From a virus: a stretch of 36,097 nt of DNA. This document shows positions 4,114 through 23,811 of this stretch, piece after piece; position 1 is the first letter of the stretch; each line of letters opens with the position of its first letter. The translations under genes were made by a program, and so were the position numbers. The notes beneath the pieces were generated by a model. The model made no database searches. It was given only the letters and a program-made list of their open reading frames with translations, and had not been told where the DNA came from. The DNA lies in IMG/VR virus record IMGVR_UViG_3300032897_000016, positions 1 through 36,097 of that record. One strand, given 5' to 3'.

Positions 4114-4292
4114 CGCTTCGTCCTCCGCGCCGCCGACAAGAACTCCACCGCCCTCGCCAAAACAGCCTCCGCCTCGTCCCCGTAATGCCGCACGAGCACG
4201 CGAGCGATGGCCTCAGCGTCGAGGTCGTAGCTCTTCCCGGCGGCCTCCGTGTTCTTGCGGAGGGCGCGGTCGATGGCGGGGAAGGAGCTCAT
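4110..4292 (-). CDS. Small helical hypothetical protein, first gene of the left operon
   Basis: A 60-residue protein (MSSFPAIDRALRKNTEAAGK and onward), predicted all-helical. It is the first gene of the minus-strand operon reaching 2104. No Shine-Dalgarno sequence is seen; its 5' leader shares a 13-nt sequence with the leader of the divergent rhomboid gene. The frame stays open much further upstream, but that extension is a shadow of the rhomboid gene. Confidence 0.55.
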   Translation of the reverse strand: MSSFPAIDRALRKNTEAAGKSYDLDAEAIARVLVRHYGDEAEAVLARAVEFLSAARRTKR

Positions 4293-4306
4293 GGGAAGGC
4301 TGACGG

Positions 4307-4336
4307 AGCCTACCCCGCCGGTATTCACCAGGCCAA
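4307..4336 (-). promoter_or_regulatory. Promoter of the 4292-2104 operon
   Basis: Minus strand: TTGGCC (4336-4331), 18-nt spacer, TAGGCT (4312-4307), then 14 nt to ATG 4292. The -10 lies in the inverted repeat shared with the divergent promoter. Confidence 0.4.
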
Positions 4337-4367
4337 CGCTTTTGTACACACAACCGGGGTGGAAAAG

Positions 4368-4396
4368 TTGCAAATTGAATGGTTCTCCGGTAGGCT
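4368..4396 (+). promoter_or_regulatory. Promoter of the rhomboid operon
   Basis: TTGCAA (4368-4373), 17-nt spacer, TAGGCT (4391-4396), then 13 nt to ATG 4410. No Shine-Dalgarno site fits in the short leader. Confidence 0.4.
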
Positions 4397-4409
4397 CCGT
4401 CCTACTCGC

Positions 4410-4982
4410 ATGACCCGCCGTTCCGCCCCCGTCGTAACCCTCCTCCTGGTCCTCGCGAACCTCGCAGCCTACGCCCTGGAGCTTGCCAGCGGTGGCCAGG
4501 CGACTTGCGACGCCTACGGCCTGGTCCCGGCCCGGTTCATGCGGACGGGCGCCGTGGAGCCCCTCTTCTCGAGCCTCTTTCTCCACGACCCGGCGAGCCT
4601 CCTCCACATCGCCGGCAACATGATTTTCCTGGTCGTCTTCGGCGTCATCGTCGAAAAGGCCCTGGGCCACCTCGGCTTCCTGGGCCTTTATGTCGCTGCG
4701 GGCGTCGCCGGCTGCCTCTTTCACGTCTTCGTAGGCCCCGCGTCGACCGAACCCCTCGTCGGCGCTTCGGGGGCGATTTTCGGCGTCATCGCCGTCGCGG
4801 CCGTCATCCGCCCGCGCCTGCTCGGCTTCGCGAGCGCCTTCGTGCTCCTCAACGTCTTCCACGCGTTCTTCGGGGGCGAGGAAAACGTGAGTTTTGGATG
4901 CCACATCGGCGGCTTCGTGGCGGGCTTCCTCGTCGTTCTCTTGTTGAAGGCGTGCGACAGCGAAGTTTTGGAGGCCACGTGA
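4410..4982 (+). CDS. Rhomboid-family intramembrane serine protease
   Basis: A 190-residue polytopic membrane protein, close to the minimal six-helix rhomboid length. Diagnostic residues are all present: H66-x3-N70 (HIAGN) in the second helix, the nucleophile S120 in GASGAIFG, and the partner H165 in CHIGGFVAGF. Rhomboids cut transmembrane segments within the membrane. Only the N-terminal TM run and five further hydrophobic stretches are present, with no cytosolic extra domain. It leads a plus-strand operon of small, mostly unknown genes. A rhomboid in a phage-like element is uncommon; it may process a host or phage membrane protein, but no substrate is evident nearby. Confidence 0.85.
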   Translation: MTRRSAPVVTLLLVLANLAAYALELASGGQATCDAYGLVPARFMRTGAVEPLFSSLFLHDPASLLHIAGNMIFLVVFGVIVEKALGHLGFLGLYVAAGVAGCLFHVFVGPASTEPLVGASGAIFGVIAVAAVIRPRLLGFASAFVLLNVFHAFFGGEENVSFGCHIGGFVAGFLVVLLLKACDSEVLEAT

Positions 4983-5415: not shown

Positions 5416-5597
5416 GCAAGCCGAAAAAGAACGTGAAGGAGCCGAAGGAAGAGGTCGTCAACGTGCGGCTCACGACGTCACAGAAAAACGAGCTCAGTGC
5501 CGCCGCCGCCAGCGAAGGGCTCGGTCTCAGCACCTGGCTGCTTCAAGCGGGACTCGTGAAGGCGCGAGAGCAACGCGCAGGAAGCGACAGACGGTGA
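5412..5597 (+). CDS. Ribbon-helix-helix-like DNA-binding protein
   Basis: A 61-residue protein from GTG 5412, with GGAGGA upstream and a GTGA overlap with the previous stop. After a lysine-rich arm (residues 1-15), the segment VVNVRLTTSQKNELSAAA, then GLGLSTWLLQAGL, matches the strand-helix-helix plan of CopG/MobC-type proteins. It could be a local transcription regulator or a relaxosome-like accessory protein. It is not closely similar to the two RHH paralogues at 11.6 and 15.7 kb. Confidence 0.6.
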   Translation: MSKPKKNVKEPKEEVVNVRLTTSQKNELSAAAASEGLGLSTWLLQAGLVKAREQRAGSDRR

Positions 5598-9905: not shown

Positions 9906-11182
9906 GCTCGCGCCCTCTTCGCGAGCTTCTGCTCCAATTTTCGAGCGCGCTTCCGAAACCTGACAGCACGGCGCGCGTACTGCGCTGCGAGTGAACGGAG
10001 CTCCTTCACGGTCTCCTTACGACGCAGAAAACGCCGTCGACGTCGCCCGTTGTAAGGACCGCCGATGAGCGAGTCGTACACCACCGCGATCCCCTCGCGC
10101 TCCGCCACGCGCCGAATCGAGTCGGTGTCGACACGCCGACGCCGCAGCCCCTTGACGAGCGCTTCGCGCGCCTCGGCGGGCGTGTTCGGATGGATCACCA
10201 TCGCGGACAGCACGTCGCGCATCAGCTCTCCCCTAGAGTCACGTCGGTGCCGCTTGAGCCCCTTCGCCTTCAACCGCGACACGCGCCGACGGATTTCCTC
10301 CAGCACCACCCACGGCGCGGCGTCGTTGCAGCAGACCGCTCTCAACGCCCGCGCCATCGCGTAGGGGTTCTTCTTGGCGTTCTTGACGATGATTGGAAGA
10401 GCGGACTCGATCTGTTCTCGAGTCGCGTCACCCGCGTGGATCCGCGACATGGCGGAGCCGGGATACTTCTCGCTGCGCTCGTAGATCTCACGGAAGATGT
10501 CGAAGACACGCGCGCCGTACGCTTTGGCGAGCGCGAGCAGATCGGTGCGGTGATCGTTCGACGTGAAGACCTCGAGCCCGTTGTAGGCGTCCGCGCAGCG
10601 CGGCACCATGAGCGCGACCTTGTCGAACTCGTCGGCCTTCGGCCTCTTGCGTTCGAAGAAGAAAAAGATCGCGTTCTGCGTCTCGTAGTCCTCGAAGTAG
10701 CCTTCGCGGAGCATCGCGATACACCACTGCGTGCCGAGACCGTAGTGCCCGCTCGCCTGCTTGTTCTTGATGTGCCGGACGATGAGATCGTCCGAGTCGT
10801 AGACGACGTCGGCTTCGATCGCGCCCTCGATCCGGTAGAGCTTCTCGCGTTTTCGACGCTTGCGATCGGACGCGCGCTGGAGCTTGAGCAAGTTGTCGCG
10901 CAGCTTCGCGAGATCCTGCGGGCGGTACGTGTAGATATCGGGATCGATCCGCGGCTGCCGCTGACGTCGACGACGAGCGCCAGGTAGCGGGTGCCCGCTG
11001 AACCGATGGAAGAGATCGAGGACGTCCGCGATCTCGGGCGCGAGCGCTTGCCCGGACTCGAGCATCTTCGCGCCCCAGTCAAGGTACTTGAGCTTCCTCG
11101 ACGGGTCGCGCGAGGCGAGCAGACGGATCCCTTCCTCGTGTTCGGGATGTTTCTGGAGAGCGGCGTCGAGGCGAGTGCTCAT
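9902..11182 (-). CDS. Large uncharacterised protein with G-T-x-W-C motif
   Basis: A 426-residue protein, the largest in its operon. ATG 11182 is chosen by the ATGA overlap. Order: helical N-terminus (KYLDWGAKMLES), a region with the segment DIYTYRPQDLAKLRDNL, then strands with ASGHYGLGTQWCIAM and YFEDYETQNAIFFFFERKR, then helical repeats and a highly basic C-terminus. The AS-x-YG-x-GT-x-WC pattern recalls uncharacterised proteins I associate with large phages, in which a conserved Trp-Cys follows a Gly-Thr turn; no biochemical role is known to me. The C-terminal 80 residues are rich in Arg and may bind nucleic acid. Possible enzyme, given conserved Cys; unproven. Confidence 0.6.
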   Translation of the reverse strand: MSTRLDAALQKHPEHEEGIRLLASRDPSRKLKYLDWGAKMLESGQALAPEIADVLDLFHRFSGHPLPGARRRRQRQPRIDPDIYTYRPQDLAKLRDNLLKLQRASDRKRRKREKLYRIEGAIEADVVYDSDDLIVRHIKNKQASGHYGLGTQWCIAMLREGYFEDYETQNAIFFFFERKRPKADEFDKVALMVPRCADAYNGLEVFTSNDHRTDLLALAKAYGARVFDIFREIYERSEKYPGSAMSRIHAGDATREQIESALPIIVKNAKKNPYAMARALRAVCCNDAAPWVVLEEIRRRVSRLKAKGLKRHRRDSRGELMRDVLSAMVIHPNTPAEAREALVKGLRRRRVDTDSIRRVAEREGIAVVYDSLIGGPYNGRRRRRFLRRKETVKELRSLAAQYARRAVRFRKRARKLEQKLAKRARA

Positions 11183-11511
11183 TGCGGGTGCTCTTCGCCG
11201 ACGAACTTCACGACGCGCGAATCCAAACACACGACGCGCATACCGAAACCGAGCGTGGGCGTACCGTGCAGCTCGGCGCACTTGTCGAACTCCAGGTCGC
11301 GCCTGCGCAGCCACGCGTCTTGCGCATCCTGGTTCCGAAGGCGCTCTTCGATTGGTTGAGGTGCAGGGAACGCTACCTGCGTCGACGCCGAAGCACGCGC
11401 GTTGGGCGCAGCGATCAGCGCGGGCTTACGGCGTGAAGACAATCCCACGAAGAGGCCGAGCACAACGAGCACTCCGATTGCTGCGGTCTCTAACCAGTGC
11501 CAGTTCCTCAT
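11179..11511 (-). CDS. Single-pass membrane-anchored hypothetical protein
   Basis: A 110-residue protein: one N-terminal transmembrane helix (ETAAIGVLVVLGLFVGL), a basic stop (SSRRK), a low-complexity linker and a small domain with two cysteines (CAELHGTPTLGFGMRVVC) that could form a disulfide outside the cytoplasm. Topology resembles small phage spanin or inhibitor subunits, but no family is assigned. ATGA overlaps at both ends. Confidence 0.55.
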   Translation of the reverse strand: MRNWHWLETAAIGVLVVLGLFVGLSSRRKPALIAAPNARASASTQVAFPAPQPIEERLRNQDAQDAWLRRRDLEFDKCAELHGTPTLGFGMRVVCLDSRVVKFVGEEHPQ

Positions 11512-11681
11512 GCCGCGCGAGCGCTCCGTTTTGACATCAACTTCTCCGCGAGGATCGCTCGGATGACCGCGCTCGTCTTCACCTCCGCACCAGCCCGCTT
11601 GCTCATGCGTTTCCGTTCGAGTTCGACTGCATTCCGCAGCTCGGGCGGAAGCCGAAGATCGACCTTTTCGGTGTGCTTCAC
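11508..11681 (-). CDS. Ribbon-helix-helix regulator A
   Basis: A 57-residue protein from GTG 11681. The strand KVDLRLP, helices PELRNAVELERKRMSK and EVKTSAVIRAILAEKL fit the Arc/CopG ribbon-helix-helix fold, which binds DNA as a dimer through the paired strands. It is a clear paralogue of the protein at 15654-15827: same length and about half the residues identical. The start is fixed by a TATAGT -10 box 7 nt upstream and by the equal length of the paralogue; the longer open frame upstream would cover both promoters. It heads the 11-gene minus operon and probably represses its own promoter through the palindrome TTGTCSGACAA. Confidence 0.75.
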   Translation of the reverse strand: MKHTEKVDLRLPPELRNAVELERKRMSKRAGAEVKTSAVIRAILAEKLMSKRSARAA

Positions 11682-11688
11682 GAAGCCG

Positions 11689-11717
11689 ACTATATCCGAG
11701 TCGGATTTGTCCGACAA
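11689..11717 (-). promoter_or_regulatory. Promoter of RHH gene A
   Basis: Minus strand: TTGTCG (11717-11712), 17-nt spacer, TATAGT (11694-11689), 7 nt to GTG 11681. The -35 is the right half of the operator palindrome. Confidence 0.6.
11707..11717. promoter_or_regulatory. Operator palindrome A
   Basis: TTGTCCGACAA: perfect 5-bp half sites around one central base, overlapping the RHH gene A -35. The same palindrome (central base G) occurs at the same place beside RHH gene B. Arc/CopG-type dimers typically bind such sites. Confidence 0.6.
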
Positions 11718-11722
11718 GTCTC

Positions 11723-11752
11723 TTGACGTCGATCCCGACGCGGGAGTAGCGT
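11723..11752 (+). promoter_or_regulatory. Divergent promoter for the 11835-14204 operon
   Basis: TTGACG (11723-11728), 18-nt spacer, TAGCGT (11747-11752). It starts 5 nt from the operator palindrome. The copy beside RHH gene B has the same -35 and the same 18-nt spacer. Confidence 0.5.
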
Positions 11753-11790
11753 CGTCTTTCTCGTCATCATCGTCGAAAAGGAGTCCCCGC

Positions 11791-11838
11791 TTGGCGAAAG
11801 CTGGTTGGATCACGTGTCTGCTCGTGAGGTGGTCGTGA
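11791..11838 (+). CDS. Possible 15-codon leader ORF
   Basis: TTG 11791 follows an AAAAGGAG site at 6-7 nt and encodes about 15 residues (AKAGWITCLLVRWS after the start). Its TGA overlaps GTG 11835 by GTGA. This is the only good ribosome-binding site in this leader, so the short ORF could deliver ribosomes to the next gene. Too short to judge by composition. Confidence 0.25.
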   Translation: MAKAGWITCLLVRWS

Positions 11839-12176
11839 GCTACGCCGCCATCGATCTTCGGATCGGGATCCTCGAACTTTTCGTCGACGCGGCACGCGTC
11901 AACCCGCCGCCCGTCTGGTTTCCCATCAAGTTGTGGCGCGCACGCGAGCATCCTCAGCCGCGTCCCAAGCTGCCGGTCGTAGAGGTTCGTCGGCGCGCGA
12001 AGGATCGCAGAAAACGAGTAGAAGCCACCGTGCGCGCGCAGCGCATCGCGGAGCGAGAGAGGAACTACATCATGTTCGTGCGTAGGCCGGAAGCGCCGAA
12101 GCCAGTCGCGTCGTTCCCCAACTACTTCTGCTCGAAGTGCCGATCGACGGCGCCGACGCATCGGTGCCCGGGATGA
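11835..12176 (+). CDS. Basic protein with C-terminal zinc motif
   Basis: A 113-residue protein. GTG 11835 is chosen for the GTGA junction with the leader ORF; an in-frame TTG at 11805 is an alternative. After a short N-terminal domain (AAIDLRIGILELFVDAARV) comes a basic helix (RRRAKDRRKRVEATVRAQRI) and a C-terminal FCSKCRSTAPTHRCPG, giving C-x2-C, H, C for zinc. First gene of the operon controlled by the RHH A region. Confidence 0.55.
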   Translation: MSYAAIDLRIGILELFVDAARVNPPPVWFPIKLWRAREHPQPRPKLPVVEVRRRAKDRRKRVEATVRAQRIAERERNYIMFVRRPEAPKPVASFPNYFCSKCRSTAPTHRCPG

Positions 12177-12451
12177 AAACGAAAGACCAGATGCGCCTCG
12201 GCCACGGCGCCGCGATCCGTCGACAAGACGGAAAGCTCAGCGTCGGCACCTTCGTCGAAGTGAAGGAGGGGCAACCGATCCCGGAGGGCTACGAACTCAT
12301 CCGCGTCGGCGCCGAAGGCGAAGACGGCTGGCGCGATGTCACGTCGATCTACGGCGGCGAGCGGAGCGGACCCGCGCAGGTTGCGACGCCCGCGTACCGC
12401 GAGGGCTACGACAGAATTTTCGGAAAGAAGCCCGTCATCGGAGAAGCATGA
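12173..12451 (+). CDS. Hypothetical protein
   Basis: A 92-residue protein, ATGA overlap at 12173. Contains GAAIRRQDGKLSVGTFVEVK and EGYELIRVGAEG strands, suggesting a small beta domain. No family recognised. Confidence 0.5.
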   Translation: MKTKDQMRLGHGAAIRRQDGKLSVGTFVEVKEGQPIPEGYELIRVGAEGEDGWRDVTSIYGGERSGPAQVATPAYREGYDRIFGKKPVIGEA

Positions 12452-12741
12452 TGAAACCAGAGAAGGTCCGGTACCGATTCTTTTTCTTCCGTCCCTCGTC
12501 GGACATACCGAACTTCGAACTCGAAGCAGGCCCCTTCACGCCGCTCGAAGCGTCCGCGTTCGGACAGATGGAGACGGCCAAGAAAACGATGGCGACCGGC
12601 GAAACGTGGGGATGTCACTACCAGGAGATCGTCGCCTACGACACCGGGCGCCGACCACTCTGGATCGGCGTCGTCATCGCGATCTGCTCCATCGTCATCG
12701 GGCTCATCCTCGGTGATTTTTTGGCGAGGACGCTTCGATGA
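12448..12741 (+). CDS. C-terminally membrane-anchored hypothetical protein
   Basis: A 97-residue protein, ATG 12448 (ATGA overlap; a second ATG follows directly). The N-terminal domain starts YRFFFFRPSS; a single hydrophobic helix (WIGVVIAICSIVIGLILGDF) lies at the C-terminus, as in tail-anchored proteins. Unknown role. Confidence 0.55.
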   Translation: MMKPEKVRYRFFFFRPSSDIPNFELEAGPFTPLEASAFGQMETAKKTMATGETWGCHYQEIVAYDTGRRPLWIGVVIAICSIVIGLILGDFLARTLR

Positions 12742-12932
12742 CCACGTGCGTGTCTTGCGGTAAGTCGGCCGACGTAGAAATCGAAACGATCGTCCACCCG
12801 CTCACTGCGCGCGGAGAACAAATGTTCGAAATGATGCGCAAGGTGCCAAACATCGTACCCATGTGCATAGATTGCACGAAGCGTGCTGGCGCTGCGGTCG
12901 AGCGGGGCGACTTCGCCGAGGAAGAACCATGA
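12738..12932 (+). CDS. Small zinc-binding protein
   Basis: A 64-residue protein, ATGA overlap. Two C-x2-C pairs (CVSCGK near residue 4 and CIDCTK near residue 43) flank a helical middle, a zinc-ribbon arrangement. Unknown function. Confidence 0.6.
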   Translation: MTTCVSCGKSADVEIETIVHPLTARGEQMFEMMRKVPNIVPMCIDCTKRAGAAVERGDFAEEEP

Positions 12933-13621
12933 CTCCGAATCAAATCCGCCACACCCTCGATCGCCTCGACACTGTCATCAACCTTCTCCACAAACGTCTT
13001 CCTGGTGGCGGCCTGCTGGTCGACACGGCCACATTGAACGATCTCGTCGCGGACTCGGATTCGCTGCGTTCTTTCTTCCAACACTTCTTCCAACATCATT
13101 TTGGCTTTTCCTCGAACCAATCCCGCATCGTCGCTTGGGTCCGCAAAGTGTTCGACGAAGCTACCGCCACGAACGCCCCCGAACGCGCTCTTCGGCTCGT
13201 CGAGGAAGCCATCGAGCTCGCACAGGTGTGCGGCGTCGACGCCGCGGCGCTCCACCGCCTCGTGGACTACGTTTTCAATCGTCCCGTCGGCGAGCCCTCG
13301 CAGGAGATCGCGGGCTGCATGGTGACGCTCTACTCAGCAGCGCACGCGCTCGGTGTGGACGCCGACGAGGCGTTCGAGCGAGAGCTCTCGCGGATCCAGC
13401 AGCCGGAGGTCATCGACCGGGTGCGGCGGAGGCAGAAGGAGAAGAGGGAGGCGCTCGTGGCGACGATGGAACTTCCAGGAGGTTGGAGGACACGGGCGCC
13501 GGAACCGGATCGTGTGCCGATCGATCCGATGTTCGATCCGGTGGTGAGGCCCATCGAAGAGCTCCCGGGCGCGCGGCCCTCGCCGTCGGGGCTCGAGGGA
13601 CCGAAACGAGGCTCGCCGTGA
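12929..13621 (+). CDS. MazG-like nucleotide pyrophosphohydrolase (first)
   Basis: A 230-residue protein, ATG 12929 (ATGA overlap). Residues about 85-150 carry the all-alpha NTP-PPase pattern: RLVEEAIELAQVCG (EExxE metal-binding helix), then NRPVGEPSQEIAGCMVTLYSAAHALGVDADEAFERELSRI. In the classical motif the second helix reads ExxD; here it is EIAG, so one metal ligand seems replaced, a variant that I recall in phage/plasmid homologues. Members hydrolyse (d)NTPs to monophosphates. The N-terminal 80 residues are unassigned and the C-terminus is proline-rich and probably disordered. Confidence 0.6.
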   Translation: MTPNQIRHTLDRLDTVINLLHKRLPGGGLLVDTATLNDLVADSDSLRSFFQHFFQHHFGFSSNQSRIVAWVRKVFDEATATNAPERALRLVEEAIELAQVCGVDAAALHRLVDYVFNRPVGEPSQEIAGCMVTLYSAAHALGVDADEAFERELSRIQQPEVIDRVRRRQKEKREALVATMELPGGWRTRAPEPDRVPIDPMFDPVVRPIEELPGARPSPSGLEGPKRGSP

Positions 13622-13974
13622 AGCCGCTGCGTTGGCACGCCCAAGGATCCTTCACGGCCTTCATACGCGAAGGATCGAAAAAGCTCGTCTTCGTCGTCTC
13701 GCAAACCGACAAGTGGGCGGTGATAGCTCTCGAAACCGACGGAGACGACGTCGCTGCGGTCCTCGCCTCGCACGCGCATCAAAACTTGGGCGACTTCGAC
13801 ACGGTGTCCGAAGCTTTCGCCGTGTGCGAAACCTACGCCGCGAATTGGCGTGCGGGGAAGCGTACCGACCCGTGTGAGTGCGAAGAGATCGAGGCACCCG
13901 CCAAGTCCATCGAGATCGACGCGGAGTTCGAGGAGCCCGTCGCCGCGCACGTCGAAGGCAAGACAGATCAATGA
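13618..13974 (+). CDS. Hypothetical protein
   Basis: A 118-residue protein from GTG 13618 (GTGA overlap). The first 80 residues form an apparent alpha/beta domain (KLVFVVSQTDKWAVIALETD); the tail is acidic. No family recognised. Confidence 0.55.
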   Translation: MKPLRWHAQGSFTAFIREGSKKLVFVVSQTDKWAVIALETDGDDVAAVLASHAHQNLGDFDTVSEAFAVCETYAANWRAGKRTDPCECEEIEAPAKSIEIDAEFEEPVAAHVEGKTDQ

Positions 13975-14204
13975 CCCCCGACCCCTACGAAATCTGCCGC
14001 CACATCCGGCACTACCACCAGAAGAACAGCTACGCGCCGAAGCGCGTCGAGGTCGAGCACTGGTGCGGCGGCGCGGAGTTCTTCGAGCAGCTCGTCAAAA
14101 ACGACGTCATCGAAGTCTTGCCGATCGCGGAGCACGGCGAGCCCGTTGCGGTCGTGCTCACGGAGAAGGGGTATCGGATGGCGACGGTGGAGCGGAGGCG
14201 GTGA
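13971..14204 (+). CDS. Small winged-helix-like protein
   Basis: A 77-residue protein, ATGA overlap at 13971. ICRHIRHYHQKNSYAPKRVE, EFFEQLVKNDVIEVL and a beta hairpin ending VVLTEKGYRM fit the plan of a small winged helix. It ends 3 nt before the convergent primase stop. DNA binding is an inference from the fold pattern. Confidence 0.5.
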   Translation: MTPDPYEICRHIRHYHQKNSYAPKRVEVEHWCGGAEFFEQLVKNDVIEVLPIAEHGEPVAVVLTEKGYRMATVERRR

Positions 14205-14207
14205 ACC

Positions 14208-15617
14208 TCAGCTCTTCCCTGAAAACCCGACACACGAACCATCAACACGCACGACCTCGAAGCCCGAGCGCCCCTCTCGCACTCGGATCCGCCGCACACC
14301 CGAACCGATAATCTCCTCGAAGCGAGGATGCCGCCGCACTAGCGCGAAGAGAAAGTCGAAGTCGACGCCAGCGACCGAGTCACCCGGCTCGTACGCGTTC
14401 AAGATCGACGCGAAGCGTGTCCGCTGCTCCGCCTTTGGCGTTTCAAGCGCGTCGATCACGAGGCGCGCAGCCTTCACCTTGCGATCCTCCATCGCGACGT
14501 CGATACGCCGACCGATCAGCAACGGCAACGACAGCGCATCGAGATACTCTACGTGGAGCGTGCTTCCAATCTTCACCGTCATCGTGAAGATCGCGCCGTC
14601 CTCACGCGGGCGACACTTCAAGATGAATCGGTCGAGCGCCGGAAACTCTGGCAGAGCTTCCAGGCGCTGAAACCAACCGTCGATCACACGCGCGCGCAAC
14701 ATGCCTCGACCGTGCTCTCGGCGAGCCGACTCCAGTGCCGCAACAGGAAGCACATCGAGAAGATCCCCCGTTGTACGCCTCGCGCAGTGCGCGTGAGAGC
14801 AATGGAATAGCCCCCACGCCGCGTCGGTCGTCGGAGGGAAGATCACCGTCGACGAGTCGCCATCGGTGCCGCTCGTGTGCTCGCGTGCCCACGGACAAAC
14901 GACAGAGAGCGCACCGTTACTCAAAGTCTCGAACGCCATGCCGGCGAACGCGAACGCTCGCCCAAAAAACGTTTGATCGGCGTCGGAAAGATCGGCACAC
15001 ACACGCCCTTTTCCTGGTGGTGCCGCTGGTTTCCGTTCGCCCATCGGAGCCCCCACAGGAAAAGGACGGAGGTGTGTGGCCGTCTCGCTCAGCGCTTTCT
15101 CCACGTCGAGCGGCCGTCCTTCGAGCTCGTGCCACTCGTACGCTCCTCCAGGCGGGTGGCTCGGCAAATACCAGAACCGGCTCGCGTCGCGCGTCGACTC
15201 GTCGAGCACCCGTTTCGCTCGCGCGATCTTGTCGGCGACCCAGACCCAAACGCGCGAGTATTCGTCGGCGTCGACGGGGCGACTGAGTGTGAAGATGACG
15301 CGCAGCTTCGGATGCTCGGGGGTGTGCCTAAACGTCGTGTACGTCACGCCGCGCACACCGGGAAGCAAGTTCGCCGCTTGTCGAATCGTCGTGTCTCCCT
15401 CGTCGAAGTCGAGGATGAGCGCGTGCACTTGCTCGACCCGGGGGAGCGCTCGTCGGTTGTCGACGAAGGACGCGAGCGAGAAGCCGGCGACCTTCCGCTT
15501 GTCGCGTACGACCTCGGGGTCGCGCACGAACGTGTCGATGAACGAGGCCCAGGTGTGCTTCTCGCGTCGACCTCGAGAGAACGAACGCCAGAGCGTCAAG
15601 TAGAAGGTCGAGCTCAT
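14208..15617 (-). CDS. DNA primase-like protein (AEP-type with zinc motif)
   Basis: A 469-residue protein. Residues 66-72 (ALILDFD) give the D-x-D of an archaeo-eukaryotic-type primase; RHTPEHPKLRVIFTLSRP (97-114) and STRDASRFWYLPSHP (141-155) match the metal/nucleotide-binding pattern seen in phage and plasmid AEP primases. A CPW...EH...FHCSHAHCARRTTGDLLDVL region later resembles the zinc ribbon that recognises template. Such proteins make primers and usually partner a VapE- or D5-like helicase; here that partner is divergently encoded at 15938. ATG 15617 has GGAG directly adjacent, too close for normal spacing, so translation may be coupled to the ORF starting at GTG 15657. Confidence 0.7.
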   Translation of the reverse strand: MSSTFYLTLWRSFSRGRREKHTWASFIDTFVRDPEVVRDKRKVAGFSLASFVDNRRALPRVEQVHALILDFDEGDTTIRQAANLLPGVRGVTYTTFRHTPEHPKLRVIFTLSRPVDADEYSRVWVWVADKIARAKRVLDESTRDASRFWYLPSHPPGGAYEWHELEGRPLDVEKALSETATHLRPFPVGAPMGERKPAAPPGKGRVCADLSDADQTFFGRAFAFAGMAFETLSNGALSVVCPWAREHTSGTDGDSSTVIFPPTTDAAWGLFHCSHAHCARRTTGDLLDVLPVAALESARREHGRGMLRARVIDGWFQRLEALPEFPALDRFILKCRPREDGAIFTMTVKIGSTLHVEYLDALSLPLLIGRRIDVAMEDRKVKAARLVIDALETPKAEQRTRFASILNAYEPGDSVAGVDFDFLFALVRRHPRFEEIIGSGVRRIRVREGRSGFEVVRVDGSCVGFSGKS

Positions 15618-15653
15618 CTCCGGTGAGGTAGACGTTCGCTGCGCGTGCGGTGT

Positions 15654-15827
15654 TCACGCCGCGCGTTCGTTCGTGGCAGGTCTTTGCTTCAGCGCTCGTT
15701 CGAGAAGCGCTCGAATGGCGACGCTCGTTTTCACTTCGGTGCCGAGTGCCTTGCTCATGCGGCGGCGCTCACGTTCGACTGCGCTCCGCAGTTTGATCGG
15801 CAGCCGGACGTCGACCTTTGCTTCCAT
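15654..15827 (-). CDS. Ribbon-helix-helix regulator B
   Basis: A 57-residue protein from ATG 15827 (MEAKVDVRLPIKLRSAVERE and onward). Same RHH plan as regulator A, with matching KVD-RLP strand, MSK turn and EVKTS helix start. The ATG lies 7 nt after a TATAGT box. Being placed between the primase (same strand) and the divergent replication operon, it is the best candidate for the regulator of replication genes, and for autorepression through TTGTCSGACAA. Confidence 0.75.
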   Translation of the reverse strand: MEAKVDVRLPIKLRSAVERERRRMSKALGTEVKTSVAIRALLERALKQRPATNERAA

Positions 15828-15834
15828 AGAAACG

Positions 15835-15864
15835 ACTATAGCGCGCGCAGACGTTGTCGGACAA
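15835..15864 (-). promoter_or_regulatory. Promoter of RHH gene B and primase
   Basis: Minus strand: TTGTCC (15864-15859), 18-nt spacer, TATAGT (15840-15835), 7 nt to ATG 15827. Confidence 0.6.
15854..15864. promoter_or_regulatory. Operator palindrome B
   Basis: TTGTCGGACAA, overlapping the -35 of RHH gene B. It differs from operator A only in which G or C is central, which is the strand complement of the same site. Confidence 0.6.
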
Positions 15865-15871
15865 GTCTTTC

Positions 15872-15901
15872 TTGACGGGAGGCGGCGCGCAGGATTAGTA
15901 T
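15872..15901 (+). promoter_or_regulatory. Promoter of the replication operon
   Basis: TTGACG (15872-15877), 18-nt spacer, TAGTAT (15896-15901), giving a leader of about 30 nt before TTG 15938. Lies 7 nt from operator B. Confidence 0.5.
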
Positions 15902-15937
15902 CGGCTCTCAACCGTCGAAACTGAAGGAAGCACGCCG

Positions 15938-17257
15938 TTGGCGACAGCTAGCTGGGACACCTATCTCCTGAAGAACAAGCAGGGCGCGTACCTGCCGTGC
16001 CTGGCCAACGCCGTCAAGATCCTCACGCACCGCAAGGAATGGTATCGCGTCGTCGCCTACGACGAGTTCTCCGGTTCGATCGTCAAGAGGAGCCCACCGC
16101 CGTGGGATCCGGATCTCAAGCCTGACGAGGACGATGTTGGTGATTGGACGCAGAGCGATTCGGGGCGCGCCGCCGTGTGGCTCTCGGACGAGTATCAGTG
16201 CTCGTTCTATTCGTCCGTCGCCGACGAGGCGGTGAGGCTCGTCGCAGAGCGGTGGAGGTATCATCCGGTGCGCGACTACTTGAACGAAGTGCGCCCTAAG
16301 TGGGATAACAAGCCACGCATGGACGATCTGCTCGTCCGAGTCGCGGGGGCACCCGATACACCCTACACACGCGCCATCACCAAGAACTTCTTTCTCGGTG
16401 CTGTCGCACGCATCATGCGACCGGGCGCGCAGGTCGACACCGTACTCATCCTCGAAGGCCCGCAAGGGGCGCACAAGTCGACGTTCTTCCGCATCCTCGC
16501 GAGCGATGACTGGTTCGTCGACACGCTTTTCAACATCGGCGGCAAGGACGGCTACCAAGCGCTCCGACGAAAATGGATCGTCGAGTTCAGTGAGCTCGAT
16601 GCTCTCAGCACCGCCGATCTCGCGCGGGTCAAGGCGTTCATCTCGTCCGTGAAAGACAGCTATCGTCCCTCGTACGGCAGGGCGACGATCGACTTCCCGC
16701 GGCAGTGCGTGTTCGCCGGAACAGTCAACCCGAACGGCGCGGGATACTTGAACGACACGACGGGCGCTCGACGCTTCTGTCCAGTAGTCGTGACCGAAAT
16801 AGATCTCAAGACGGTGCGCGAAGAGCGCGATCAGCTTTGGGCTGAAGCGTTCGCGCGTTATCAACGCGCCGAGAAGTGGTACCTACGCGACAAGGAAATC
16901 CTCGCGATAGCCGCACGTGAAGCCGAAGAGCGTCGCGAGCCGGAAGCGTGGGAGACGCACTTCAAGGAGTACCTACACTTGAACCGCGCCCTCTACCGGA
17001 AGGGCGGCGTGACAATCACAGAACTGCTCACCAACGCTGTGGACGTCCCGAAGGAGCGCCAGAACCGCGCTGCACAGATCCTCGCCGGCAAGTCGCTGCG
17101 GGCGATCGGCTGGACGAAGGTCGTACGAGGCAGCGACGACATTCGCCGCTACTTTCCCGCTGACGGGCCTCTAAGAGTAGTTCCTTCTTCCTCCAATCCT
17201 CCAATAGACAAAGGGAGTTCTAGAGGGGGTAGTAAGAAGAAGGGATCCGGTACGTGA
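15938..17257 (+). CDS. VapE-like P-loop ATPase/helicase
   Basis: A 439-residue protein of the virulence-associated-E type. Domains: N-terminal wing (residues 1-120, ending in the family signature VRDYLNEVRPKWDNKPRMDD), then the ATPase core with Walker A GPQGAHKST (174-182) and Walker B WIVEFSELDAL (213-223), followed by FAGTVNPNGAGYLND near the sensor position. VapE proteins are thought to act as replicative helicases next to AEP primases in phages and satellites. Start TTG 15938 has AAGGAAG about 8 nt upstream; no in-frame ATG lies near. The Ser/Lys/Gly-rich C-terminus is probably disordered. Confidence 0.8.
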   Translation: MATASWDTYLLKNKQGAYLPCLANAVKILTHRKEWYRVVAYDEFSGSIVKRSPPPWDPDLKPDEDDVGDWTQSDSGRAAVWLSDEYQCSFYSSVADEAVRLVAERWRYHPVRDYLNEVRPKWDNKPRMDDLLVRVAGAPDTPYTRAITKNFFLGAVARIMRPGAQVDTVLILEGPQGAHKSTFFRILASDDWFVDTLFNIGGKDGYQALRRKWIVEFSELDALSTADLARVKAFISSVKDSYRPSYGRATIDFPRQCVFAGTVNPNGAGYLNDTTGARRFCPVVVTEIDLKTVREERDQLWAEAFARYQRAEKWYLRDKEILAIAAREAEERREPEAWETHFKEYLHLNRALYRKGGVTITELLTNAVDVPKERQNRAAQILAGKSLRAIGWTKVVRGSDDIRRYFPADGPLRVVPSSSNPPIDKGSSRGGSKKKGSGT

Positions 17258-17297
17258 GGGGGTACCAAACGCCAAATCTCAATCGGAGGTTTGGAGG
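17190..17297 (+). other. Possible alternative RNA structures before the nuclease gene
   Basis: Local hairpin: CCAAATCTC (17272-17280) pairs with GAGGTTTGG (17286-17294), one T-G wobble, 5-nt loop. The same right arm, within GGAGGTTTGGAGG (17285-17297), is complementary at 12 of 13 positions to CCTCCAATCCTCC (17190-17202) in the end of the VapE-like gene. The two pairings exclude each other. Confidence 0.35.
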
Positions 17298-17335
17298 ACG
17301 CCCTCTTCGGATTTTGCGCCCCAACGGCTTAGAAC

Positions 17336-17341
17336 AAGGAG
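17336..17341 (+). promoter_or_regulatory. Shine-Dalgarno site fixing the nuclease start
   Basis: AAGGAG, 5 nt before ATG 17347. It supports this ATG over the GTG at 17254 that overlaps the VapE-like stop. Confidence 0.55.
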
Positions 17342-17346
17342 AAATC

Positions 17347-18546
17347 ATGGGTCTTCAACCGTCCGCTTCTCGTACCGCGCTGCTTCTCGCCTGCCCCCGT
17401 CCGTTCGATCCGGAGCTCGAGGAGGACCCGGATCCCTCTCGCGAGCCGGCGCGGTACGGGACCGCGTTTCACGCCGTGCTCGCCTCGTGCTTGCGCTCGC
17501 CCGCGAAGAAGCCGCTTGAGAGAAGCGACTCGTACGCGAAGGAGGTCGACCGAGCCGCCGCGAAGAACGACGTCAAGCGCGCGGCGCAGGAGCTTGCGGG
17601 GCACGTGAAGAGCAGCGCGAAGGTGCTTCGGAACTGGCTCACGCGCGAGAAGCTCGAGGTCGCCGTGGTCGAACAAGCCTACGCGGTTTGGCCTCGCGAG
17701 AATGGCCTCGTGACAACCCGCGCCATCGAACCGCACGACGAGGATCATCGCTACAAGATCGCGCCGGGGGAAGTGCCCGGGACCGTCGATCTCGTCGCGC
17801 TGAGCTCGAACCGAGAGCGCGCTGTAGTGCTCGATCACAAGACTGGTAGCGGCGACGAAGACAAGTTCGCGCAGCCGGCGGAGATCCCGCAGATGCGCAC
17901 GCTCGGGCTAGTCGCTACCGAGATCGCGTCTCTGCGCGGCGGAGTGAACGTAGAGGTTGGGATCTTCCACGCCGACCGTCGAGGGCTTCCGATCGTGTAC
18001 GCCGAACCGTACGATCGCGACGAGCAAGGGCGCCATGCCGTGCGACTCCATCGCGCTCTCTCGCAGATCGGAAGCGGGTTCTTACGCCCTGGGGCGCAGT
18101 GCAAGTATTGCCCGGCGAAGATCACGTGCCCGGCGTGGGCGGCAGACTTGCTCGCCGAGAGCACGGTGGCGCTCGTCTCGTCGGCGAACACGCTCGCCTG
18201 CGAACCGATCAATCCGAAGGCGCTCCTCGCGCTTCCCGATGAGATGGCGTCGAGCGCCGTCTCCCTAGAGGCTCGGGCGGGCGCGCTCTACGAGCTCCTC
18301 AAGAAGTTCCGCGCGCTCGACAAGGCGGGCTCCGAGGAGATCAAGCGGCTCGTGCGCGGCGGTGCGGTCATCGAGACGCGTGACGGCAAAGTGCTCGCGC
18401 TTCAGACGCAAACCTACGAGATGCTGTCGAAAAAGAGCGTGATCGAGGCGCTCGGCAAAGTCGCAGGCGAAAAAGAGCTCGCGCGGCTGCGCGAGAAGGG
18501 CGCGACCAAAGAGGTGACGCGCGAAGTGCTTGTGGGCGAGAAATGA
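17347..18546 (+). CDS. Cas4/RecB-like PD-(D/E)XK nuclease with Fe-S cysteines
   Basis: A 399-residue protein. The N-terminal SASRTALLLACPRPF holds C16; YGTAFH gives H42; GTVDLVAL gives D148 and LDHKTG gives D163 and K165, completing the RecB-family nuclease core. A C-terminal cluster C252-x2-C255-x5-C261 plus C16 is the arrangement that binds a 4Fe-4S cluster in Cas4, AddB and phage RecB-like exonucleases. The remaining 140 residues are helical. In a phage replication operon it probably makes 3' single strands for annealing by the Sak4-like and ssDNA-binding proteins just downstream. Confidence 0.8.
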   Translation: MGLQPSASRTALLLACPRPFDPELEEDPDPSREPARYGTAFHAVLASCLRSPAKKPLERSDSYAKEVDRAAAKNDVKRAAQELAGHVKSSAKVLRNWLTREKLEVAVVEQAYAVWPRENGLVTTRAIEPHDEDHRYKIAPGEVPGTVDLVALSSNRERAVVLDHKTGSGDEDKFAQPAEIPQMRTLGLVATEIASLRGGVNVEVGIFHADRRGLPIVYAEPYDRDEQGRHAVRLHRALSQIGSGFLRPGAQCKYCPAKITCPAWAADLLAESTVALVSSANTLACEPINPKALLALPDEMASSAVSLEARAGALYELLKKFRALDKAGSEEIKRLVRGGAVIETRDGKVLALQTQTYEMLSKKSVIEALGKVAGEKELARLREKGATKEVTREVLVGEK

Positions 18547-20309: not shown

Positions 20310-20323
20310 CAAAAGGGCATTTG

Positions 20324-21226
20324 ATGAGTCCGCCGATCGATTGGTCAAAACTGGTCCCGCAGCCGGAGTTTGCGGGGCTTGCCCGCAGCACAAAAATCTA
20401 CATGGCAGGAAAGGTTGACGAAACCCAATGGCGTCAAGACATTGTCGGCGCTCATCTATCCGAGGCCGACCCAGAAGACGAATGGGTCGAAAGGCGGGTT
20501 TCGTTTTGGGGGCAACGCTACGAGTACGTTGGTCCGTTTTTCAGCGGATCTAGACACGCTAGCGACATGGGCGAACACGGTGACGACGACTGCGCCGACG
20601 AGCACTGCGGCCGATCCGAATGCAACCGCACGGCCATCTTTAGCCGAGCTCTAAATGACTGTGACGCCGTTTTCGTCTGGCTAGATGACCGGACTGCGTT
20701 CGGTACTATTTGGGAAATGGGGTACGCGACCGCACTCGGAAAGAAAGTCGCGGTTGGCGTGTTTCACGATTTCTTCGGCGAAGCTAACGACGAGCTGTGG
20801 TTCCCTCTTATGGGCGTCGATTTCAACAACATCGCCAGCACCTACTCGGCTCGCGAAGCGTTCGAGAAGCTTTTCGGGCCGCCTTCTGCGAAGTCGCAGA
20901 GCGAATCTCCAATCGAGGAGAAGATGTTGGTGGCGCTGCGGGCCGTCCTCCCTTCCCATGTCACTATTCGACAGCAAGTGAATGACATTTGTGGCGGCAG
21001 ATACCGCGCCGACTTTACTGTGACAACCGCCGAAGGCGCCAAAGTCGTTGTGGAATGCGACGGGCACGATTTCCACGAAAAGACGAAAGAGCAAGCGGCG
21101 AGAGACAAAAAGCGGGATCGCGACATGCAGCTTGATGGGTGGAAAGTGCTCCGTTTTACAGGATCGGAAATTTGGCGCGGAGCGGAGGGCTGCGCGAAAG
21201 ACGTCGCGCGAGCGCTCAAAACATGA
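20324..21226 (+). CDS. Nucleoside 2-deoxyribosyltransferase-like/DUF559-like nuclease fusion
   Basis: A 300-residue two-domain protein. Residues 22-185: TKIYMAGKVDETQW, then a Cys/His-rich insert (HGDDDCADEHCGRSEC, 85-100), DCDAVFVWLDDRTAFGTIWEMGYATALGKKVAV (112-144). This is the nucleoside deoxyribosyltransferase plan, with E131 in the position of the catalytic Glu. Residues 195-300: SPIEEKML, GRYRADF (D230), VVVECDG (E244, D246), GWKVLRFTGSEIW, the DUF559/Vsr-like PD-(D/E)XK nuclease plan. The gene is less GC-rich than its neighbours, suggesting separate acquisition. It lies between an SSB-type module and the UDG-polymerase, ATGA-coupled to the latter. ATG 20324 has AAAGGG upstream. Confidence 0.7.
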   Translation: MSPPIDWSKLVPQPEFAGLARSTKIYMAGKVDETQWRQDIVGAHLSEADPEDEWVERRVSFWGQRYEYVGPFFSGSRHASDMGEHGDDDCADEHCGRSECNRTAIFSRALNDCDAVFVWLDDRTAFGTIWEMGYATALGKKVAVGVFHDFFGEANDELWFPLMGVDFNNIASTYSAREAFEKLFGPPSAKSQSESPIEEKMLVALRAVLPSHVTIRQQVNDICGGRYRADFTVTTAEGAKVVVECDGHDFHEKTKEQAARDKKRDRDMQLDGWKVLRFTGSEIWRGAEGCAKDVARALKT

Positions 21227-23811
21227 TGCGCGCGTTGCAGATGGCGGGCGAGTACGACCCCGTCAAGGCCGGTGCTCGCTGTGATCTCTGCCCTCTCAAG
21301 GGGAACACTGTCGTTCCCCCAAAAGTTTCGCCGCTCCCTACGAAGGTCATCTTCGTCGGCGAGGCGCCGGGCAGGAAAGAAGAGATCTTCGGGACTCCGT
21401 TCATCGGCCAGACCGGCGTTTTTCTCAAGGGCCTCTGCCGAGAAGTCGACGTCGACATCCTCGAAGCGCACTTGTCCAACGCCGCGCTTTGTAGGTCGAA
21501 CATCGACAAGGAGAACGAGCTCGCCGCGACCTTCTGCGCTCCTCGACTTTTGAAAGAGCTCGCCGCGTTCGATCCGAAGATCCCCATCGTCACGTTCGGG
21601 AAGACGAGCACGCTTTCCGTGCTCGGCGTCCGGAGCATCATGCACTCGCGCGGGTTCGTCTGGACGGCGCGCGAGATCGATCCCGCGCCTGCCTGGAGCA
21701 AAGCGAAGAAGGCGAAGCTCCGCGGCGCTCCAAAGTGGAAAGAGATTTGGTTGAAAGCGCAGATCGCCGAGGGGCGCAGCAAGCTCGCTGGCAGGACGGT
21801 GCTCCCGACCGTGCACCCTGCGTTCGTGCTCCGCTCCGACACGTGGCTTCCGGTCCTAAAGATCGATCTCGACCGGATCGCTCGCTGGATGCGCGGCGAG
21901 CTGACGCATGAGCTACTACTCGAGAACGGCCCCTACGTCGTCGTATCGAAGCGAGAGCACGTCAAGCGCGAGCTCCGAAAGCTGGGGGACGTCATCAGCG
22001 TCGACGTCGAAACCGGCGCAAGCACGGAAGGAGGGAAAGACGGAGCAGATCCGATCCGCAACCGGCTCCTCTGCGTCGGGATCTCCGACGGCGATCACAC
22101 GGTCGTCATCTGGCCATGGCGAAAGACGCATGCGCCGCTCGTGAACGCGCTCTTCAAGCGCGTGAAGAAGATCGGCATGCACAACGGTTACAACTTCGAC
22201 CAGATCGTACTCGATCGCTTCGACGTCCCGTTCGAGCCGATCGAAGACAAGCTCGAAGACACGCTCGTCGCGCACCACACGTTCGCGAGCCACATGCCGC
22301 AACGCCTCTCTCACGTCGCGAGCGTGTTCGTCGACGCTGGGCCGTGGAAGGTGACGTTCAAGCAAGGCACTGGCGGCGCGACCGAGAAAGGGCTTCCTCC
22401 TGAGAAGCTCTCCGGCGAAGAGCTGACCTTGTACAACGCCGCGGACGCCAGGATCCAAGCGCAGATTTGGCTCAAGATGCAAGCCGACCTAGAAGACGAG
22501 CAGGCAGTCTACGAGGTCGACAAGTCCAACGCGAGATTGTGCCGTTCGATGATCATCAACGGCATCGGCGTCGACATGGAGCGCAGAACGCAGCTCTTGG
22601 AGGCGATGGATCGGAAAGAAACCGATCTTCTCTGGAAGATGCGCAAGCTACTCCGCCGGGCGAAGTTTCACCCGATGCAGCTCGCCGAGGTCCGGAAGGC
22701 GCTCTTCACGATCTTGAAGGCACCGATCGCGTCGGCCGATCCGACGGAGTCTGGCCTTCCGTCGACGTCGCAGACGACGCTCGAACGGTTGAAGACAAGC
22801 TCGACGCGCGCGGGGAGATTCGCCGATCTGCTCTTGCAGTGGCGCGGCGTCGTCAAGATCAAGAGCACCTACCTGATCAGCCAGATCCTCGACAAGCCGT
22901 CGAAAAAGACGCCGCTCGTTTCTCGAACGCACTTCAACTGGCGCAGCTACGGCGCAGCATCGGGGCGTTACTCGTGCCGTTTGCAGTCGTGCCCGCGCGC
23001 GGAGTACCTGAAGGACAAGAGCATCGTGCTCGAGACACGCGTGCGCGAAGTCTACGTCGCGCGTCCGGGGCACAAGCTCATCTACTTCGACCTCAGCCAA
23101 GCCGAGCTCCGGTTCGCGGCTTACCTCTCAGGAGATCAACGCTTCATTGCTGCGTGCGAATCCGGAGACGTGCACACTGCGACGGCGAAGCTGCTCTTCC
23201 CCGCCGAAGCCGAACTCATCGGGCGCGATCCGAAGGGTGCCGGAAAGCCGTTCCGAGACGTCGAGAAGAACTGCATCTTCGGTTTCATCTACTACGCGCA
23301 GCCGGATACGATCTTCGGCTTCGTGCGCAGCAAAGGGCTCCCAGTCCAGATGCGCGACGTGGTCTCGATGCACGACATGGTGCGCGACGTGTTCGCGGGG
23401 TACTTCAGATACGTCGAACAGAACAAGCGGTGGGTCGACAAGCACGGCCATCTCCGCGACGCGCTCTCGGGGAGAATCTCGTGGCTCGGATGGCACGCGG
23501 GGTACCCGGACGTCGCGAACCGACCGATTCAGGGGGGCATCGCATCGCTGATGAACGTACGCCTCCCGTTCATTTCCAGTCGGCTTCCGCAGAGCGCTAG
23601 CGTCGTCGCGCAGATCCACGACGCGGCGATCATGGAGGTCCCGGATCGTCATGTCGATCTCGTGAAAGCGCTCGTCAAGACGACGTGGGAGGAGCCAGTC
23701 ATCATTCCAGCGAACGGGTGGGGGACGAGCACGCGCGTCGAGGACGGCGCTCGACAGTTCGTGATGCCGATCGATCTGAAAGTGGGCGAACGGTGGAGCG
23801 ATTTCGGGTGA
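21223..23811 (+). CDS. UDG-3'-5' exonuclease-family A DNA polymerase fusion
   Basis: An 862-residue protein. Residues 1-220: family-4-like uracil-DNA glycosylase, with GEAPGRKEE (46-54), PFIGQTG, HPA (198-200) and cysteines 20, 23, 90 and 105 for a 4Fe-4S cluster. About 240-430: 3'-5' exonuclease with VDVET (D261, E263), NGYNFD and YNAAD. 430-862: polymerase with motif A DLSQAELR (D623, E628), motif B R678, K682, F686, Y690, and motif C H799-D800-A801, where Glu is usual. PolA-type polymerases with UDG-like domains are known in SPO1-like phages. This would be the replicative polymerase, able to link uracil recognition to synthesis. ATG 21223 is set by ATGA overlap. Confidence 0.85.
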   Translation: MMRALQMAGEYDPVKAGARCDLCPLKGNTVVPPKVSPLPTKVIFVGEAPGRKEEIFGTPFIGQTGVFLKGLCREVDVDILEAHLSNAALCRSNIDKENELAATFCAPRLLKELAAFDPKIPIVTFGKTSTLSVLGVRSIMHSRGFVWTAREIDPAPAWSKAKKAKLRGAPKWKEIWLKAQIAEGRSKLAGRTVLPTVHPAFVLRSDTWLPVLKIDLDRIARWMRGELTHELLLENGPYVVVSKREHVKRELRKLGDVISVDVETGASTEGGKDGADPIRNRLLCVGISDGDHTVVIWPWRKTHAPLVNALFKRVKKIGMHNGYNFDQIVLDRFDVPFEPIEDKLEDTLVAHHTFASHMPQRLSHVASVFVDAGPWKVTFKQGTGGATEKGLPPEKLSGEELTLYNAADARIQAQIWLKMQADLEDEQAVYEVDKSNARLCRSMIINGIGVDMERRTQLLEAMDRKETDLLWKMRKLLRRAKFHPMQLAEVRKALFTILKAPIASADPTESGLPSTSQTTLERLKTSSTRAGRFADLLLQWRGVVKIKSTYLISQILDKPSKKTPLVSRTHFNWRSYGAASGRYSCRLQSCPRAEYLKDKSIVLETRVREVYVARPGHKLIYFDLSQAELRFAAYLSGDQRFIAACESGDVHTATAKLLFPAEAELIGRDPKGAGKPFRDVEKNCIFGFIYYAQPDTIFGFVRSKGLPVQMRDVVSMHDMVRDVFAGYFRYVEQNKRWVDKHGHLRDALSGRISWLGWHAGYPDVANRPIQGGIASLMNVRLPFISSRLPQSASVVAQIHDAAIMEVPDRHVDLVKALVKTTWEEPVIIPANGWGTSTRVEDGARQFVMPIDLKVGERWSDFG

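Follow-up and report, generated by a model that had tools for sequence, protein, structure and literature searches.

Two divergent promoter cassettes with predicted ribbon-helix-helix repressors on separate early operons of a phage, and covariation of operator cores with predicted contact residues

A viral DNA of 36,097 bases (IMG/VR virus record IMGVR_UViG_3300032897_000016; GC 0.63), referred to here as the window, contains two divergent promoter regions, A and B, each with a gene for a 57-residue protein resembling ribbon-helix-helix (RHH) repressors and a palindrome, TTGTCSGACAA, that is its predicted operator. Comparison with related phages pointed to duplication of a promoter together with the start of the gene for the replication helicase VapE, and the operator core changed together with two predicted DNA-contact residues. 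From these sequences, we consider it probable that the two regions are autoregulatory repressor-operator cassettes sharing a promoter and vapE start that were duplicated, and that each protein would bind both operators, so that the two operons would form a single regulon under negative autoregulation.

Architecture of the two cassettes and duplication of their promoter region

The two cassettes have the same arrangement at the base level (Table 1). The original prediction had described two RHH-like genes with TATAGT exactly 7 nucleotides (nt) before the start codon, the palindrome over each leftward -35, and an opposing TTGACG-18-TAG promoter 5-7 nt past the palindrome. All of these were present in both copies at the positions in Table 1, and the gap from the palindrome to the rightward promoter was 5 nt in A and 7 nt in B. 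The two proteins, described as about half identical, shared 61% identity over 49 amino acids (aa) and 53-57% overall. On the minus strand, TATAGT occurred just twice in the window, both times at that distance from an RHH start codon. Exact matches to TTGTCSGACAA also numbered two in the window, namely operators A and B, with about 0.02 expected by base count. When up to two mismatches were allowed, there were 5 matches against 8 expected, and since these looser matches were not enriched, the two exact sites alone were counted. Promoters of the form TTGACN-N17/18-TAnnnT were found three times in the window, where shuffles gave an expectation of 0.3; promoters A and B account for two of them. 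The third, TTGACG-18-TAGGGT at 309-337 on the plus strand, lies near the left end without a palindrome.

Table 1. Features of the two cassettes and their operons in the window
Feature	Position	Strand	Details
Membrane protein, downstream of RHH-A	11179..11511	-	similar small membrane protein follows RHH in G006 and A-position RHH genes in G002
RHH-A	11508..11681	-	57 aa, RHH-like predicted repressor; GTG at 11681; strand residues KVDLRLP; predicted leaderless mRNA
-10 of RHH-A promoter	11689..11694	-	TATAGT, 7 nt ahead of GTG
Operator A (predicted)	11707..11717	.	TTGTCCGACAA; spans leftward -35 (TTGTCG, 11717-11712)
Rightward promoter A	11723..11752	+	TTGACG 11723-11728, 18-bp spacer, TAGCGT 11747-11752
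vapE 5' stub/leader open reading frame	11791..11838	+	15 codons, LAKAGWITCLLVRWS, then a stop overlapping GTG of X
Gene X, first of operon A	11835..12176	+	directly after vapE in single-module relative G006
Operon A small-gene block	12137..14204	+	synteny
Primase-like protein, downstream of RHH-B	14208..15617	-	PHROG DNA primase 7.5e-24
RHH-B	15654..15827	-	57 aa, RHH-like predicted repressor; ATG at 15827; strand residues KVDVRLP
-10 of RHH-B promoter	15835..15840	-	TATAGT, 7 nt ahead of ATG
Operator B (predicted)	15854..15864	.	TTGTCGGACAA; spans leftward -35
Rightward promoter B	15872..15901	+	TTGACG 15872-15877, 18-bp spacer, TAGTAT 15896-15901
vapE-like replication helicase, first of operon B	15938..17257	+	Pfam VapE 1.4e-73
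PD-(D/E)XK exonuclease, second of operon B	17254..18546	+	directly after vapE

As had been proposed, the two copies front different early operons: operon A consists of X and small genes, and operon B is a replication block of vapE, exonuclease and a Sak4-like ATPase. A leader motif, (A)CCGTCGAAA, lies at 15911-15920 and in the leaders of relatives, with one or two copies between the promoter and the first gene in many cassettes. We do not claim a function for CCGTCGAAA, which also occurs within coding sequence in the window.

The window was compared with 13 related IMG/VR contigs (G001-G013), several of them fragments; cassettes of the window phage (W) are called W-A and W-B. Seven close viral contigs were obtained with a VapE query (L082-L088, corresponding to G001-G007), an alignment query added L154 (G013), and an RHH alignment query added L165 (G008), L167 (G009), L168 (G010), L172 (G011) and L175 (G012). 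An alignment was required for the last step, as RHH-B on its own as a query returned nothing from viral contigs or phage records. Nothing was returned from the viral contigs with an X query either, although targeted record searches did find X relatives. A scan of IMG/VR DNA for the palindrome with TTGACG gave 79 loci, none with the cassette architecture, and these were discarded as chance matches. A small RHH-like gene divergent from an early operon was found in every contig of the set that reached far enough, and all 16 rightward promoters compared had the form TTGAC-N1-18-TAG. The operon of the cassette is opened by a large primase-helicase-like gene in G010, G011 and G012, and that of G009 contains a homologue of the window small gene at 12137-12451.

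The DNA similarity between the two modules of the window extends beyond the region originally described: apart from the RHH gene, where it is 71% over 119 bp, it takes in the palindrome and then the leader with the first vapE codons. Using a profile of the vapE start from six phages, the true start scored 60 and the stub at 11791 scored 30.4, while the next unrelated place scored 10.2 (background -36, standard deviation 10). The sister phage G002 carries the same stub (L083:1661). In G006, which has a single module, a membrane protein gene and the RHH gene face vapE, X, exonuclease and small genes, in this order. In the window and G002, the membrane protein gene and RHH-A face the stub, X, small genes, the primase gene and RHH-B, which in turn faces vapE; in the window, the exonuclease gene directly follows vapE. 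Because the stub and the gene order are shared by the window and G002, the promoter and the vapE start appear to have been duplicated in their common ancestor. These comparisons indicate that the promoter segment was truly duplicated, leaving the vapE stub as a scar, and that one early operon (vapE-X-exonuclease-small genes) became two. The earlier description of a duplicated module with paralogous RHH genes therefore stands for the promoter region, while duplication of the present RHH genes is not proven: in the RHH tree, most of which was unresolved, RHH-B grouped with G003 (support 82/84), and RHH-A was no closer to any other member, RHH-B included, than to G007. Exchange of the RHH genes may thus have followed the duplication of the promoter. 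In G006, an in-frame TAG is present at a serine position of vapE (L087:7001-8326) and another in gene X (G006:12346-12693); either nonsense mutations or errors in the sequence may account for them.

Operator specificity and cassette turnover

With up to one mismatch, TTGTCSGACAA was found in about 290 kb (window and relatives) at the RHH promoters of W (twice), G002, G003, G005 and G007, and at one stray site, G003:22234. The original prediction would have been refuted by a palindrome frequent outside promoters; at this threshold, about 250 kb of relatives contained that single stray, which speaks against such an outcome in these records.

To relate operator to protein, 11 type I cassettes were used, with the pairs read on the RHH strand. 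Two variable residues of the predicted strand align by eye with Gln9 and Asn11 of Arc, the third position (Arg) is invariant, and the intervening positions are hydrophobic. Arc contacts DNA via Gln9, Asn11 and Arg13 (PMC12645479), and the specificity of Arc and Mnt maps to N-terminal residues, according to the citation of Knight and Sauer (1989) in PMC3325190. Lys-Asp was paired with TTGTCGGACAA (W-A), TTGTCCGACAA (W-B) and TTGTCGGACAT (G003), Ile-Tyr with TTGTCAGACAA (G002-B, G009), Thr/Ile-Gly with TTGTCGAACAA (G007, G005), Lys-Glu with TTGTCCTACGC (G006), Ala-Asn with TTGCAATACAA (G008), Phe-Gly with TTGCTAAACAG (G010), and Tyr-Asn with TTGTAAAACAC (G012). Thus, the same residues accompanied the same core within both the Lys-Asp and the Ile-Tyr groups. 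Similarity of the operator cores correlated with strand-residue identity (r=0.50, p=2e-4; p=1.3e-3 without G003) and not with overall protein identity (r=-0.08), and a partial Mantel test controlling for overall identity gave p=5e-5. These results suggest that the operator core tracks the two predicted DNA-contact residues, not overall identity, and through this covariation the alternating base-reading strand residues that characterize RHH proteins are indirectly indicated here. Since RHH-A and RHH-B have the same predicted contact residues (Lys, Asp) and the same core, each would be expected to bind the operator of the other as well, giving a single regulon of two operons. Cross-regulation between A and B, one of two consequences originally drawn from the two copies, is therefore likely; the other, a two-state switch, is considered below.

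The relatives differ in which cassette occupies each position. At position A, G002 has an unrelated type II RHH gene (MVATRVDKPLYAKLLKRQ) with a different operator (GTAACAGATGTTTACCGACGAAAC), and at position B a type I RHH gene with TTGTCTGACAA. A type II cassette occupies the vapE position in G013, and a type II operator was found there in G001 and G004. Two or more cassettes were also present in G002, G008, G010, G011 and G012, and because the inspected operators differ within a phage, the single shared specificity of the window stands out. We conclude from these comparisons that cassettes are duplicated and swapped among relatives. In the window and relatives, the type II motif was found at type II cassettes only. 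A scan with the type II operator also matched several unrelated coding sequences (L176, L178-L182), and the motif alone is therefore not diagnostic. Directly after a type II RHH gene lies a gene (L083:898-1341, minus strand, and L187, in the region of G011:14483-14635) whose C-terminal part matched type I RHH-like proteins; its N-terminal part is one that we take to be GIY-YIG/T5orf172-like.

Predicted mode of regulation

Each module would be an autoregulatory cassette in which the RHH repressor acts between back-to-back promoters. In most cassettes, 6-11 nt separate the -10 of the RHH gene from its start codon, and the leftward promoter would therefore give a leaderless or nearly leaderless mRNA. 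As the leftward -35 is inside the operator, a bound RHH dimer would shut off its own gene; promoter occlusion is a common mode of action of RHH proteins, including at their own promoters (PMC5569661). With the rightward -35 only 5-7 bp away, the bound protein would affect the early operon as well, the simplest way being to obstruct RNA polymerase.

The assignment to the RHH family is inferred from the sequence pattern, from weak TraM, YlcI/YnfO and BrnA profile matches, and from a predicted strand with two helices: in the AlphaFold monomer, residues 1-10 were extended and residues 11-28 and 34-47 helical (predicted local distance difference test score 78.7), whereas pairing of the strands would require a dimer. 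No Arc or Mnt chain was found in the PDB search to E=10 and no Arc family in the Pfam scan, so that homology to these proteins was not shown by search, and the proteins are proposed to work like P22 Arc and Mnt by analogy.

Several observations weigh against the proposed regulon. A PDB fold search with the monomer model gave nothing significant, a PDB sequence search gave no RHH relative, and the curated RHH profile cut-off was not passed (best, RHH_1 with E=0.038 in one of 11 members). RHH-A and RHH-B are not nearest relatives. For the covariation, the TTG of the operator doubles as the leftward -35, so that part of its conservation may belong to the promoter, and it was on this TTG that the operator registers of G006, G008, G010 and G012 were placed by eye. 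Equally strong correlations with the operator were seen for some other protein columns. Furthermore, relative to the rightward promoters the operator occupies roughly -42 to -54, from where a bound protein could also activate.

This last point leads to the main rival, in which repression by the RHH protein is confined to the leftward promoter and the rightward operon benefits, either because a competing polymerase is removed or because the protein touches polymerase from the operator. The operator indeed covers the leftward -35, yet is upstream of the rightward one, and the gaps from operator to rightward -35 fall into two groups near one helical turn apart: 4-7 or 14-16 bp in type I and 17-18 or 26-28 bp in type II cassettes, in steps of about 10 bp. 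This periodicity (R=0.75, p=0.004 for type I; R=0.88, p=0.018 for type II) was evaluated against a uniform null with no correction for kinship, and an active role of bound RHH at the rightward promoters is possible. However, the gap pattern was noticed post hoc in few and partly related cassettes, and the extra 10 bp of G005, G006 and G007 contain GACA/CAAC-like half-sites by eye, so that tandem operators could explain the step with no need for activation. We favour repression in both directions and regard action on the leftward promoter alone as rather unlikely, though the most serious of the alternatives.

The two-state switch originally proposed would mean that the RHH proteins oppose one another and so keep the phage in either of two states of expression. 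It would suit two paralogous regulators at two operons in a phage whose integrase suggests a temperate life. However, the two repressors would share both their sites and their sign of action; the common gene orientation, predicted contacts and operator point to parallel negative feedback and not to mutual exclusion, and there are relatives with a single cassette (G003, 84 kb, one RHH match). We regard such a switch as improbable. Still less probable is that the RHH genes are the autoregulating antitoxins of toxin-antitoxin pairs. RHH antitoxins of the CopG/ParD/BrnA type do autoregulate and one member had a weak BrnA-antitoxin match, but all cassettes are at early-operon promoters and the downstream genes vary (membrane protein, primase, deoxyribosyltransferase-like, HNH nuclease and others), with no constant partner. 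RHH proteins also serve plasmid copy control and partition, and module B adjoins the vapE and primase genes; the palindrome could on these grounds be a CopG/ParG-like replication or segregation site instead of a transcriptional operator. Yet the second copy controls a small-gene operon without a recognised replication gene, the sites are single with no iteron array, and in almost all relatives the site overlaps a -35, which makes this reading as remote as the antitoxin one.

Known systems and other genes of the window

The proposed regulon resembles the immI region of P22, where one phage also has two small RHH paralogues with autogenous control by Arc (PMC2629481), and where specificity is set by a short N-terminal segment, as far as the citation of Knight and Sauer (1989) in PMC3325190 goes. 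The P22 genes arc and mnt are neighbours that control ant, whereas the cassettes here are on separate early operons that start with X and the small genes or with vapE; those of the window share one operator type, and cassettes are exchanged between phages and positions. F55 of SSV1 and SvtR of SIRV1 are likewise small viral RHH regulators acting at their own and early promoters (PMC5569661). In these archaeal viruses, however, one regulator acts at several sites on archaeal promoters, and there are no duplicated divergent repressor-operator cassettes. In the lambdoid phages, the cI repressor and its operators travel as a unit with specificity that varies among related phages, and cI mRNA from PRM is leaderless. 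The lambdoid system differs in its protein fold, its multiple operators and its lysogeny switch with Cro; a Cro-like antagonist was not found in the window phage.

A tentative generalization, for which we would claim somewhat less than even chances, is that interchangeable RHH-operator cassettes serve this phage group as standard controllers of early operons, with two strand residues mainly setting specificity as a recognition code. Duplication and replacement would then rewire control between a coordinated state (window) and an insulated one (G002), and bound RHH would possibly act from a fixed helix face. On the same two-operon layout, G002 has two unrelated specificities and the window one shared specificity. 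RHH proteins are very common regulators in phages and plasmids, few of which have been studied together with their operators, and arguments about the divergence of repressor specificity in duplicates usually draw on a small number of cases. In this phage group, 11 naturally occurring repressor-operator pairs share one promoter setting, and their predicted contact residues and cores change together. With 57-residue proteins and 11-bp sites, direct tests are feasible both of an RHH recognition code and of how coordinated and insulated control evolve. The finding remains a variant of a known, P22 Arc/Mnt-like type of phage regulation, yet one that offers a testable natural set.

The window contains replication and nucleotide genes and an integrase gene, and since no capsid or terminase was recognised among its genes, it is probably part of a longer phage genome. 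No tRNA was found in the window, and two genome contig scans for the host, with VapE and PolA queries, gave no close relative. A gene at 21139-23811 (plus strand) encodes a DNA polymerase A with an N-terminal uracil-DNA-glycosylase-like domain (Pfam UDG 1.7e-14, DNA_pol_A 4.9e-32), a fusion with 80-85% identity in relatives. The phage also encodes a rhomboid family protein (4185-4982, plus strand; Pfam Rhomboid 5.9e-22), which is kept in G002, G005, G006 and G007. A weak pair of Phd/YefM antitoxin-like and ParE toxin-like genes, under the curated cut-offs, lies at 1345-1937 on the minus strand. The third small RHH-type gene of the window (5430-5597, plus strand) encodes a NikA-like mobilization protein (Pfam NikA-like 8.6e-07) unrelated to RHH-A and RHH-B, and one gene at 20318-21226 (plus strand) combines a nucleoside 2-deoxyribosyltransferase-like domain with a DUF559/MTES_1575 nuclease-like domain.

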